From: an uncultured Porphyromonadaceae bacterium
GTDB lineage: Bacteria; Bacteroidota; Bacteroidia; Bacteroidales; Muribaculaceae
DNA: 15,214 bases
Assembly (NCBI GenBank): GCA_947174735.1
Contig: CAMWKC010000024.1
Coordinates: 1-15,214 of the forward strand
Direction of reading: 5' to 3'
How positions within the stretch are numbered: the stretch's first letter is position 1; the number at the start of each line of letters is the position of its first letter. This document shows positions 1,499-10,473 of this stretch, piece after piece. The notes under the pieces are model-generated. The model ran no database searches. It was not told where the DNA came from and was given only the letters and a program-made list of their open reading frames with translations. The translations under genes and the position numbers were made by a program.

Positions 1499-2575
1499 AT
1501 GTTTGATTTTGGAATATGGACAAAATGGTTTAACGACCTGCTGATGGGATGCATGCCTGAGTGGCTGGCAATCCTTATCGAATGTGTGGTCATAGCTGTT
1601 CTTGTACTTCTGACCTACACGGTGCTGGCGCTGTTCTACATCCTTTACGAGCGCAAGCTGTGTGCTTGGTTCCAGTGCCGTCTCGGCCCTATGCGTGTGG
1701 GCAAATGGGGTCTGCTGCAGGTGTTCGCCGACATGTTCAAGATACTTGTCAAAGAGCTTATCAGTCTTAAAGGCACCGACCGTTTTCTGTTTAAACTGGC
1801 TCCTTATCTTGTCATTACGTCATCAGTTGTGATGCTGGCATGTCTGCCTTGGGGACGCGGTTTGCAGATAATTAATTATAATATAGGTATATTCTTTATA
1901 CTTGCCGTGTCATCGGTAGGTGTGTTAGGTATACTTTTGGCCGGTTGGTCATCGAATAACAAGTATACTCTTATCGGTGCTATGCGAAGTGGTGCCCAGA
2001 TGATAAGTTATGAAATATCATTGGGTCTGGCACTGATAACTATAGTGGTATTTGCCGGTACGATGAATATCAGTGAGCTGGTATATGAACAGGAGAAAGC
2101 ATGGTTCCTGTTCCGTGGTCATATCCCGGCCATAATAGCTTTTCTGATATATATAGTAGCTGCTACTGCTGAGACTAACCGTGGTCCTTTCGACCTTCCG
2201 GAGGCTGAACACGAGCTCATCGCCGGTTATCATACCGAGTATTCAGGTATTCACTTCGGTTTCTTCTATCTGGCTGAGTATCTTAACCTCTTCATCGTGT
2301 CGGGTATCGCCTCACTGATGTTCCTCGGTGGCTGGATGCCGCTGCACATACCCGGTTGGGACGGCTTCAATGCTGTGATGAACTGGATACCGTCGATAGT
2401 ATGGTTCCTCGGTAAAGCTTTCTTCATCTCATTCGTCATTATCTGGTTCAAATGGACTTTCCCGCGTGTGCGTATCGACCAGATGCTGGCTTTTGAATGG
2501 AAATACCTCATGCCGCTGTCTCTGGCCAACCTGCTGCTGATGGCAGTGTTCGTGGCCCTCGGCTGGCATTTCTGA
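1499..2575 (+). CDS. nuoH: NADH-quinone oxidoreductase subunit H
   Basis: This is the membrane subunit of complex I that joins the peripheral arm to the pump modules and forms part of the quinone chamber (358 aa, about eight membrane helices). Diagnostic stretches are [15 protein letters not shown] at about residues 50-64 and [17 protein letters not shown] at about 224-240, continuing into a GYHTEYSG motif; these acidic and arginine-rich loops line the quinone and proton-entry site in known structures. The ATG at 1499 gives a normal N-terminus with an amphipathic start before the first membrane segment (about 24-50). No Shine-Dalgarno sequence is visible; the leader is A-rich. The gene lies 53 nt after nuoCD and is the last complex I gene before the ATP synthase block, with atpD starting 67 nt later. 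In the usual nuo order nuoI would follow directly. Confidence 0.97.
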
Positions 2576-2642
2576 TAAATCAGATGCAAAGAGAAACGAC
2601 AAACTCACAAACACTAACATCGATAAAAACAGAAAAACAGAT

Positions 2643-4145
2643 ATGAGCGCTAACTACGGAACAGTGACTCAGGTGATCGGCCCGGTTATCGACGTGTCCT
2701 TCGAGGGTGGTAAGGAGAATATCCCGCCCATCTACAACGCTCTTAAGGTGGAGCGTGACAACGGCGAGGAGCTTATCCTTGAAGTCGAGCAGCATATCGG
2801 CGAAGATATAGTACGCTGTGTGGCCATGGAGAGTACCGACGGTGTACGCCGCGGTGTGAAGGTTCTTGACCTCGGACGTCCTATAGCAGTGCCGACAGGC
2901 GATCAGGTAAAAGGCCGTCTTCTCAACGTCATCGGCGAACCTATCGATGACCTTGCCCCTATAAACCGCGACCATCTGCGCCCCATACATCAGCCGGCTC
3001 CTTCATTTGATGAACTGGCTATCTCTACCGAGATACTTTATACCGGTATTAAGGTTATTGACCTTATAGAACCCTATTCGAAGGGTGGTAAAATCGGTCT
3101 GTTCGGTGGCGCCGGTGTAGGTAAAACCGTGCTTATCATGGAGCTTATCAATAATATTGCCAAAGGCCATAACGGTTATTCGGTATTCACCGGTGTCGGT
3201 GAGCGTACCCGTGAGGGTAATGACCTTCTGCGCGAGATGATTGAAAGCGGCGTTATAAAATACGGTGAGAAATTCGAGGAAGGCATGGAGAAAGGCGAGT
3301 GGAATATCCGCGACGTCGATATGGCCGAAGTTGCCAAATCTCAGTCAACACTCGTGTTCGGTCAGATGAATGAACCCCCGGGCGCACGTCTTCGCGTGGC
3401 TCTGTCAGGTCTGACGGTAGCTGAGCAGTTCCGCGACAGTGACGGTGGTGGTAAGGAGGTACTGCTGTTTATCGACAACATCTTCCGTTTCACACAGGCA
3501 GGTAGTGAGGTATCGGCACTTCTGGGTCGTATGCCCTCAGCCGTAGGTTATCAGCCTACACTATCCTCTGAGATGGGTGCTTTGCAGGAACGTATCACCT
3601 CGACAAAGACCGGCTCTATTACTTCGGTACAGGCTATTTATGTACCGGCCGACGACCTTACTGACCCGGCTCCGGCTACCACATTCTCGTTCCTTGACGC
3701 TACTACAGTGTTGAGCCGTAAGATAGCCGAGCTTGGTATATATCCCGCTGTTGACCCTCTGGATTCGACATCACGAATACTTGATCCTCATATTATAGGC
3801 GAGGAACATTATAACGTGGCTCAGGGTGTTAAGCAGCTTCTTCAGAAATACAACGAGCTTCAGGACATTATCGCCATTCTTGGTGTTGATGAACTCTCTG
3901 ACGACGATAAGCTGGTGGTAAGCCGCGCTCGTCGTGCACAGCGTTTCCTGTCACAGCCTTTCTCAGTGGCCGAGCAGTTTACCGGTCTTCCCGGTGTTAT
4001 GGTTCCGCTGGCTGAGACCATACGCGGCTTCAAGATGATACTTAACGGTGAGGTAGACCAGTATCCAGAACAGGCTTTCCTCAATGTCGGTACTATTGAT
4101 GAAGCAATCGCCAAGGGCAAGAAGATGCTCGCAGAGGTAAAATAA
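2643..4145 (+). CDS. atpD: F1Fo ATP synthase subunit beta
   Basis: This is the catalytic subunit of the F1 head, three copies per enzyme, facing the cytoplasm (500 aa). Visible motifs are Walker A GGAGVGKT (155-162), the catalytic glutamate E187 in GVGERTREG, Walker B LLFIDN ending near residue 279, and DELSDDD (416-422), the equivalent of the DELSEED torque loop. Relative to E. coli there is an extra, mostly acidic and charged stretch at about residues 203-230, between EMIESGVI and the [18 protein letters not shown] region. I associate such an insertion with Bacteroidetes beta subunits. The ATG at 2643 gives the expected start [18 protein letters not shown]. It is the first gene of the ATP synthase block, unlike the common B-E-F-H-A-G-D-C order. 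The leader (2576-2642) is A/C-rich, with no recognisable promoter. A GC hairpin follows the stop codon. Confidence 0.99.
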
Positions 4146-9749: not shown

Positions 9750-9792
9750 CACACAGGATGTATCTTTAAGAAACGTATTTTCAGTATATATA
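9750..9792 (+). other. T-rich junction between the ATP synthase block and nuoI
   Basis: This 43-nt gap is the right boundary of the ATP synthase block. It holds 15 T by hand count (about 35%), unlike the T-poor, A/C-rich leaders elsewhere. TATCTTTA at 9761-9768 is one base from the Bacteroides -7 element TAnnTTTG, but no TTTG lies about 20 nt upstream, so a promoter is only a weak possibility. No hairpin, direct repeat or mobile-element end is visible. Confidence 0.3.
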
Positions 9793-10473
9793 ATGAGTAG
9801 TATAAAGGAATATTTTTCATCGGTGGGAAAGGGCCTCAAAAGCCTCGCACAGGGAATGCAGGTGACAGGCAAGGAACTCGTGACACCAAAGATAACTGAG
9901 TGTTATCCCGAGAACCGCGCCACACTCAACATTTCTGACCGATTCCGTGCGGAACTCACTCTGAAGTATGACGCCGAAGGGCGCCACAAGTGCATAGGAT
10001 GCGGTATATGCCAGATGAACTGTCCTAACGGCACTATCCAGCTGACCACTAAGATGGTCGAACTACCTGACGGTAAGAAGAAACGTGTTCTGGACAAGTA
10101 TATGTACGATCTGGGTTCATGTACATTCTGTATGCTTTGTGTCACTACCTGTCCGCAGGATGCTCTGGAGTTCTCCAATGACTTCGAACAGGCTGTGTTC
10201 ACCCGTGACGCTCTTATCAAACAACTTAACTATCGTCCCGAACCTGCGACTCCGGCACCTGCTGCTCCGGCTAAGCCTGCCATGTCGCCCGAAGAACTTG
10301 CACGCATTAAAGCCGAGGCTCTTGCCAAAGCAGCTAAGATAAAAGCCGAGCGTGCCGCCGCAGCCGCTAAAGCAGCTGCTGAAGGCGGTGCACAGGCTGC
10401 CAAGCCCGAGGCACCTGCAGCAGATAGCTCTAAACCTTCTGCACCTGCCACAGACAACACCGAAAACAAATAA
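9793..10473 (+). CDS. nuoI: NADH-quinone oxidoreductase subunit I (2x[4Fe-4S] ferredoxin-like) with Ala/Pro/Lys-rich C-terminal tail
   Basis: NuoI carries the two [4Fe-4S] clusters that pass electrons to NuoB and quinone. It has 226 aa from ATG 9793. The frame stays open upstream to 9631, but that part overlaps atpG and does not resemble NuoI, whereas MSSIKEYFSSVGKGLKSLAQGM is a normal amphipathic start. Cluster ligands are C67-C70-C73-C77 (CIGCGICQMNCP) and C110-C113-C116-C120 (CTFCMLCVTTCP), both perfect CxxCxxCxxxCP. FRAELTL before the first motif matches the family. After about residue 150 comes a tail of some 75 residues rich in Ala, Pro, Lys and Glu (PATPAPAAPAKPA, then an alanine-rich helix, then a polar end), absent from E. 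coli NuoI (about 180 aa). nuoJ follows after 8 nt. Confidence 0.96.
   Translation: MSSIKEYFSSVGKGLKSLAQGMQVTGKELVTPKITECYPENRATLNISDRFRAELTLKYDAEGRHKCIGCGICQMNCPNGTIQLTTKMVELPDGKKKRVLDKYMYDLGSCTFCMLCVTTCPQDALEFSNDFEQAVFTRDALIKQLNYRPEPATPAPAAPAKPAMSPEELARIKAEALAKAAKIKAERAAAAAKAAAEGGAQAAKPEAPAADSSKPSAPATDNTENK

Follow-up and report, generated by a model that had tools for sequence, protein, structure and literature searches.

Gene content and layout of the locus

The stretch of DNA analysed here (the window, 15,214 nt) comes from an uncultured Porphyromonadaceae bacterium and contains a complete set of F-type ATP synthase (atp) genes nested within a complex I (nuo) operon. It spans one contig (C24) end to end in a draft genome of 2.49 Mb, 388 contigs and 72 % completeness. 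All genes lie on the + strand in the order nuoCD-nuoH-[atpD-C-B-E-F-H-A-G]-nuoI-J-K-L-M-N, with nuoCD and nuoN cut by the contig edges. Profile matches cover all eight F1Fo subunits (a, b, c, alpha, beta, gamma, delta and epsilon). An earlier sequence-only reading had placed the eight atp genes between nuoH and nuoI on the same strand, with gaps of 67 and 43 nt and complex I genes on either side. The profile matches and coordinates bear this out: nuoH ends at 2575 and atpD begins at 2643, atpG ends at 9749 and nuoI begins at 9793, with nuoCD and nuoH to the left and nuoI to nuoN to the right. The features, including open reading frames (ORFs) cut by the contig edges, are as follows.

3..1445, + strand: nuoCD (fused NuoC-NuoD), 5' end truncated by the contig edge; PF00329 and PF00346; frame open to the left edge, listed ORF start GTG at 51
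1499..2575, + strand: nuoH; NCBIfam NuoH above cut-off
2576..2642, + strand: nuoH-atpD junction, 67 nt
2643..4145, + strand: atpD, F1 beta; TIGR01039, 778 bits
4191..4427, + strand: atpC, F1 epsilon, short form of 78 aa with the N-terminal domain only; PF02823, TIGR01216 just under cut-off
4440..5723, + strand: atpB, Fo a subunit; PF00119 and TIGR01131 above cut-off
5802..6047, + strand: atpE, Fo c subunit; PF00137 and TIGR01260 above cut-off
6121..6615, + strand: atpF, Fo b subunit; TIGR01144 above cut-off
6619..7164, + strand: atpH, F1 delta; TIGR01145 above cut-off
7169..8752, + strand: atpA, F1 alpha; TIGR00962, 750 bits
8856..9749, + strand: atpG, F1 gamma; TIGR01146 above cut-off
9750..9792, + strand: atpG-nuoI junction, 43 nt
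9793..10473, + strand: nuoI, start ATG at 9793, Ala/Lys-rich C-terminal extension; PF12838 and related 4Fe-4S models
10482..11009, + strand: nuoJ; PF00499
11016..11327, + strand: nuoK; PF00420
11331..13274, + strand: nuoL; PF00361 and PF00662
13308..14822, + strand: nuoM; PF00361
14864..15214, + strand: nuoN, 5' part, truncated by the contig edge; open ORF beginning MDYSQF that resembles the ORF after nuoM in L114 and L115

The complex I genes from CD to N are in order in the window, which starts inside nuoCD; nuoA and nuoB fall outside it and were seen in nested relatives. No nuoE, nuoF or nuoG lies between nuoCD and nuoH in the window. The GC content is alike in the two gene sets (0.44-0.57 across genes), and the Rfam search of the window returned zero family matches. 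In the source genome, PF00006 matched the atpA/atpD pair of the window and one weaker relative on a different contig. The window AtpC scored 65.7 against TIGR01216 (cut-off 67.25), which is due to its consisting only of the short N-terminal domain, and lay well above the cut-off of PF02823.

AtpC lacks the C-terminal helices, which inhibit ATP hydrolysis in other bacteria; its median length is 77 aa in nested and 80 aa in separate loci. The C-terminal tail of the window NuoI is rich in Ala, Lys and Pro, and the NuoI median is 201 aa in nested against 159 aa in separate loci. The other protein length medians are similar, and the length data permit no conclusion on a physical supercomplex.

Conservation of the nested layout

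Within the family of the window, nuoH was found in 118 of 119 genomes and adjoins atpD in 111 of these 118, with gaps of 22-176 nt including the stop codon (median 55), as it also does in the one-contig genome G238. The remaining seven genomes have the genes at contig edges, as checked at the contig ends for G239, G191 and G193 and judged for G210, G237, G262 and G221 from matches lying at or close to position 1. An alignment scan with NuoH led to 80 fetched loci from named genomes, labelled Muribaculaceae, Porphyromonadaceae, Prevotellaceae, Bacteroidales, Barnesiella, Bacteroides, Paramuribaculum or Ca. Limisoma. Three of these stop short of atpD; in the 77 that reach it, atpD begins 24-126 nt past nuoH in 76. 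At the other end of the insertion, nuoI directly follows atpG in all 61 fetched loci having both genes, and the gap is 6-344 nt (median 45, these 61 loci and ten more). The full order is also present in two isolates (L078 and L112). Altogether, the layout is conserved through 30 genera of the window's own family and under six more family labels; the genes upstream of nuoA vary among the three nested loci inspected.

The sole break among the 77 loci is L075, where 2377 nt are inserted between nuoH and atpD and the contig ends within atpD. This insert contains a BspA-like ORF of 716 aa (L075:11139-13289) with an end that looks dockerin-like by eye. Two further apparent irregularities were discarded. 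In short contigs, the 'atpA' called between atpD and atpC is a cross-match of atpD, and the seeming loss of both genes in G185 is no demonstrated absence since its nuoL/M/N sit at a contig start.

Across the order, 149 genomes were sampled. A NuoH match of any kind was found in 86 of them, and 54 were counted as having full-type NuoH (at least 50 % identity), excluding weaker matches (at most 44 % identity) and G069 with its match split in two. Both genes are present in 50 genomes, and 11 of these, under seven family labels, are nested. The ten besides the window show the complete order from nuoCD to nuoM. Among the 39 that are not nested, nuo and atp are on different contigs in 36, so that the assembly gives no distance for them, and far apart on one contig in three (G106, G091 and G133). 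The nested layout includes all three genomes of family f88, in which atpD follows nuoH. In family f106, nuoH is present in 25 of 56 genomes and nuoI comes next after it in all 25.

The sequence-only reading had also stated that nuo and atp normally form separate loci, and this agrees with the wider samples. nuoI adjoins nuoH in 22/22 non-nested Bacteroidales genomes whose nuo locus was read, and in the phylum sample (247 genomes) nuoH-atpD adjacency occurred in 0 of 65 genomes among the matches listed, the closest starts among those 65 being 12.7 kb apart. This count covers the 65 genomes with both rows listed and was entered by hand; the list contains at least one genome beyond it, G487, with the two genes 245 kb apart.

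The ordinary Bacteroidales atp operon has the same gene order as the insertion and stands alone, usually with a promoter motif before atpD. Six separate loci (L124, L134, L136, L139, L140 and L152) carry the complete atpD-C-B-E-F-H-A-G set. In the non-nested loci L138, L142, L146, L148 and L150, the fetched stretch gave matches to atpD-atpC alone; these operons are probably split, with atpD-C parted from the other atp genes. In the nested genomes both the inserted and the surrounding operon are intact. Five ordinary atp operons contain an ORF of 96-140 aa resembling a membrane protein between atpC and atpB. The nested loci have no such small gene at this place, where the median gap is 11 nt.

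Promoter motif at the operon starts and junctions

The loci were searched for TAnnTTTG, which we take to be the Bacteroidota promoter motif (-7 element). Within 200 nt upstream in nested loci, it was found before nuoA in 69 of 84 cases (13 % in shuffled sequences), before atpD in 2 of 87 (10 %) and before nuoI in 3 of 71 (2 %). Separate atpD genes have it within the same distance in 40 of 52 (shuffled 13.5 %); this set consists of 38 fetched stretches and 14 longer loci, two of 40 stretches having been excluded as too short. Fisher tests were applied to the motif counts, with p-values that overstate the significance because the loci are related.

In the window itself, there is no TAnnTTTG in the 200 nt before atpD and no terminator-like site on the + strand in the nuoH-atpD junction, and the same holds for the 200 nt before nuoI and the atpG-nuoI junction. 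A sigma70-like match at 9766-9794 is at chance level (16 in the whole window, 19.6 expected). Both junctions have a median gap of 45 nt, a value inside the spread of the remaining intergenic gaps, whose medians run from -10 to 52.

The two nested atpD genes with the motif belong to G088, a member of f88, and to one genome of family f28 (L119), where it lies at -114. In f88, the earliest nested branch (L013, L224 and L225), TAATTTTG or TAAATTTG stands at the nuoH-atpD junction in 3/3 genomes. It is located about 50 nt before atpD, the common motif position in separate operons. This site is promoter-like and may be either a relic or a working element. Its presence at the junction would fit an insertion of the atp operon together with its promoter, followed by a later loss.

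Gene trees and origin

Trees were built from concatenated atp proteins (31 taxa) and from nuo proteins (39 taxa), the latter with identity limits that kept out the NuoL paralogue where nuoM is absent. The nested genomes were split from all others with ultrafast bootstrap (UFBoot) values of 95 (atp) and 100 (nuo). Both trees show the same deep branching, with G088 first, then G060/G068/G142/G028, then G109/G021/G135 and finally the window's own family. Since both gene sets isolate the nested genomes with matching deep branches, the trees point to one old insertion and vertical inheritance.

The f106 genomes fall into two groups. All 24 genomes whose AtpD is 76-80 % identical to that of the window have nuoH, and this AtpD type groups beside the nested clade (14 of the 24 in the tree). 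No nuoH match was found in any of the 24 genomes with an AtpD of 69-71 % identity, and their AtpD groups elsewhere (4 of the 24 in the tree). With this split by both nuoH presence and tree position, atp does not go with the family label in f106.

Leader ORFs in an Odoribacter-like sister lineage

Among the 24 f106 genomes of the 76-80 % AtpD type, four have nuo and atp on one contig at a distance of 18-45 kb; in others the distance is 69 kb to more than 1 Mb, or the two lie on different contigs. Before atpD, 11 of these 24 genomes have a leader ORF of 125-132 aa, and all 11 also carry a leader ORF with a similar tail before nuoA, that of G525 being the loosest. Overall, the nuoA leader was found in 15 of the 23 genomes whose nuoA upstream region was covered. 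The leader ORFs, 107-132 aa as called, have a signal-like N-terminus in most cases, a variable middle and a common C-terminal tail at the stop codon, for example FYIYFLRKIII or KYYVFALRKIIV. The tail codons differ synonymously. The loci with leader ORFs are listed below.

L124, L125, L131, L268-L272, L274: leader ORF loci; L131 is from G059, which belongs to another family
L239, L242, L244-L248, L250, L253, L255, L256, L275, L280, L281, L284, L285, L287-L291, L293: leader ORF loci in further f106 genomes

The tail roughly follows the pattern [FY]-Y-[IV]-[YF]-x-[LM]-x-[KRE]-I-[IV]-[IV]-stop. In 2.27 Mb of sequence (loci of at least 10 kb), it matched eight times, 8/8 immediately before nuoA or atpD; as the pattern was derived from some of these matches, the independent part is the empty background together with the nuoA leaders found later, some of which need a looser tail. 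Before nested nuoA, the pattern was found in 0 of 85 cases. Seven leaders tested against Pfam gave zero matches. A profile search with the leaders returned 55 proteins, and the four named ones are hypothetical proteins of Gabonibacter, Odoribacter (two) and Sanguibacteroides. For this reason the group is termed Odoribacter-like.

The leader ORFs are candidate nascent-chain regulators, and one could speculate that they are arrest peptides. A survey of such peptides looked, according to the part of the article consulted, upstream of secA, secDF and yidC (PMC10987492). The loose linkage of nuo and atp in some genomes, in conjunction with related leaders heading both operons, suggests selection for joint control. 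A tentative extension of this, which we hold to be doubtful as yet, is that gut Bacteroidales use two ways of coupling the expression of a proton pump to that of the ATP synthase. Muribaculaceae-type families would rely on operon fusion and decay of the inner promoter. Part of the Odoribacter-like lineage would keep two operons, each under a leader acting as a nascent-chain sensor that would set both operons by the state of the membrane or the proton-motive force, similar to SecM or MifM in logic and not in sequence.

Discussion

The nested layout itself is already known and has been in print since 2016. In one sentence of the consulted text, Ormerod et al. report an ATP synthase in 26 of 30 genomes of family S24-7 ('Ca. 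Homeothermaceae', now Muribaculaceae) that is integrated in the complex I locus, and the complex I described there is the 11-subunit form without NuoEFG, as in the window (PMC4936053). The suggestion of the sequence-only reading that the arrangement was undescribed is thus not upheld. It had proposed a search of Bacteroidales for nuoH-atpD and atpG-nuoI adjacency, with a widespread and already described order as the counter-case; here the reality of the arrangement stands (111/118 in the own family, 11/50 in the order sample) and its novelty does not. The observation is correct and even stronger than the reading had put it, and the interpretation as a whole is partly supported. What is added here is the history of the layout and the sequence evidence for one transcript. 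As far as consulted, the main text of PMC4936053 does not treat the junctions, the distribution among relatives, the origin of the layout or its promoters. For cross-family conservation, single origin, promoter loss and the leader ORFs, no account was found in the open literature, the scope of which excluded subscription papers, preprints and supplements.

The best explanation is probably an 18-gene compound operon that arose by one old insertion, was inherited vertically, lost its inner promoter in most descendants and is read today as one mRNA. In an ancestor of the Muribaculaceae-type families, an ordinary 11-subunit complex I operon (nuoA-B-CD-H-I-J-K-L-M-N, without NuoEFG) would have taken up a complete atpDCBEFHAG operon at the nuoH-nuoI boundary. 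The F-ATPase operon probably brought along a promoter of its own that was lost later in most descendants, and the nested locus would afterwards have been passed on vertically and almost never broken. A recent transfer, doubted already in the sequence-only reading, is ruled out by the conservation and the similar GC of both gene sets. The common transcript considered there as a possibility is judged likely from the junction gaps and motif counts; it would most likely be a single mRNA of 17-18 kb starting from one promoter upstream of nuoA. On such a message, the pump and the ATP synthase would be made together and their subunit ratios set at translation. The co-translational assembly in the same membrane area that the sequence-only reading brought up would be a further possibility.

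Several results weigh against this explanation. A tree of AtpD alone, with more sister genomes, separates the nested genomes with a support of just 81, and the value is 93 in a second nuo tree. The motif contrast is weaker when it is counted on the order sample with its ten nested genomes, one per branch (nuoA 6/10, atpD 2/10, nuoI 1/10), and both motif matches among the 87 nested atpD genes fall in these ten; the other 77 loci are the nearest NuoH relatives of the window and not independent. TAnnTTTG is a consensus, and other promoter types could escape it. In f106 genomes with nuoH, 16 of 24 atpD genes also have no motif within 250 nt (8 have one). A leader gene intervenes in 11 of these 16, and motif sites are often further out. 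Part of the change may therefore predate the nesting, and the promoter history before nesting is not simple.

The strongest rival is a frozen accident, in which one old insertion is co-transcribed through its orientation alone and brings no coupling benefit, reversal needing both precise excision and a regained promoter. This is a serious possibility, if not the favoured one. The single origin accounts for the distribution, escape is hard once the promoter is lost, and the nuo gene order of E. coli has been reported as non-essential for assembly. Against it speak the conservation in 30 genera of the own family and under six more family labels, set against the differing genes upstream of nuoA in the three nested loci inspected, and the Odoribacter-like genomes, where nuo and atp are sometimes loosely linked with related leaders on both.

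Another possibility is that the genes are nested yet separately transcribed, with atp under an internal promoter of its own of a type missed by the motif and only the position in common. The junction motif in all three f88 genomes and the motif at -114 in L119 are in line with this, as is the motif before nuoI, found in 3/71 within 200 nt and 12/71 within 400 nt (2.3 % and 7.7 % in shuffles). The motif is nevertheless present at only 2/87 nested against 40/52 separate atpD genes, and a median gap of 45 nt leaves little room, so this reading is unlikely.

Rather improbable is the horizontal acquisition of the ready-made nested cluster or of its ATP synthase. It could explain why the AtpD type in f106 (76-80 % against 69-71 %) tracks nuoH and not the family label, but a pre-nesting exchange between the two ancestral groups would fit equally, and within the nested clade the nuo and atp trees are concordant at the deep branches and the base composition is alike. 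The source is a fragmented draft genome, but an assembly or binning artefact is practically negligible given the full order in isolates L078 and L112 and the adjacency in one-contig G238, and misassembly or chance is ruled out by the recurrence in 76 of the 77 fetched loci that reach atpD.

Complex I in this lineage is without the NADH module NuoEFG, in agreement with what Ormerod et al. state for the family. NuoF, the only one of the three searched genome-wide, was above cut-off in 0 of 16 genomes of the genus (best 49 bits), with a strict cut-off that order genomes at about 500 bits also fail. The c subunit shows no Na+-type motif, which fits H+. The E. coli nuo operon shares nuoA, B, CD and later H and I with the window lineage, but it includes nuoE, F and G, and its nuoH adjoins nuoI.

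The following points are taken from the consulted parts of the papers cited. The nuo operon of Bacteroides fragilis also has no nuoE, F or G and consists of ten consecutive locus tags (BF638R_0850-0841), among which no ATP synthase genes are named; its deletion leaves the NADH:quinone activity unchanged, and the electron donor is described as unidentified (PMC7002350). In family S24-7, NQR is present in 27 of 30 genomes and was suggested as the NADH oxidiser, and genome H5 has neither ATP synthase nor complex I (PMC4936053). In the view given for Prevotella bryantii, the ATP synthase uses a proton gradient converted from the sodium gradient of NQR, with headless complex I possibly aiding the conversion (PMC6560451).

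A conceivable selective reason, offered as a guess, is that the Na+ pump NQR oxidises NADH while an H+-pumping headless complex I supplies the gradient that the ATP synthase spends. On this view the H+ circuit would be fed by headless complex I, and a common message would keep pump and ATP synthase in step; the single mRNA, the coupled expression and the selective reason are all inferred.

The loci form a series from separate operons with a promoter, to nested ones with a promoter-like site (f88), to nested ones without, which suggests a route for merging two large operons. This raises the general question of whether stoichiometry, assembly or fitness change when the operon for a pump is merged with the one for the enzyme spending its gradient. 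In the gut of mice and other mammals, Muribaculaceae rank among the most abundant bacteria. If the single message is true, F-type ATP synthase and complex I could be neither easily tuned nor lost singly in these bacteria, and genome H5, which is without both, would fit this.

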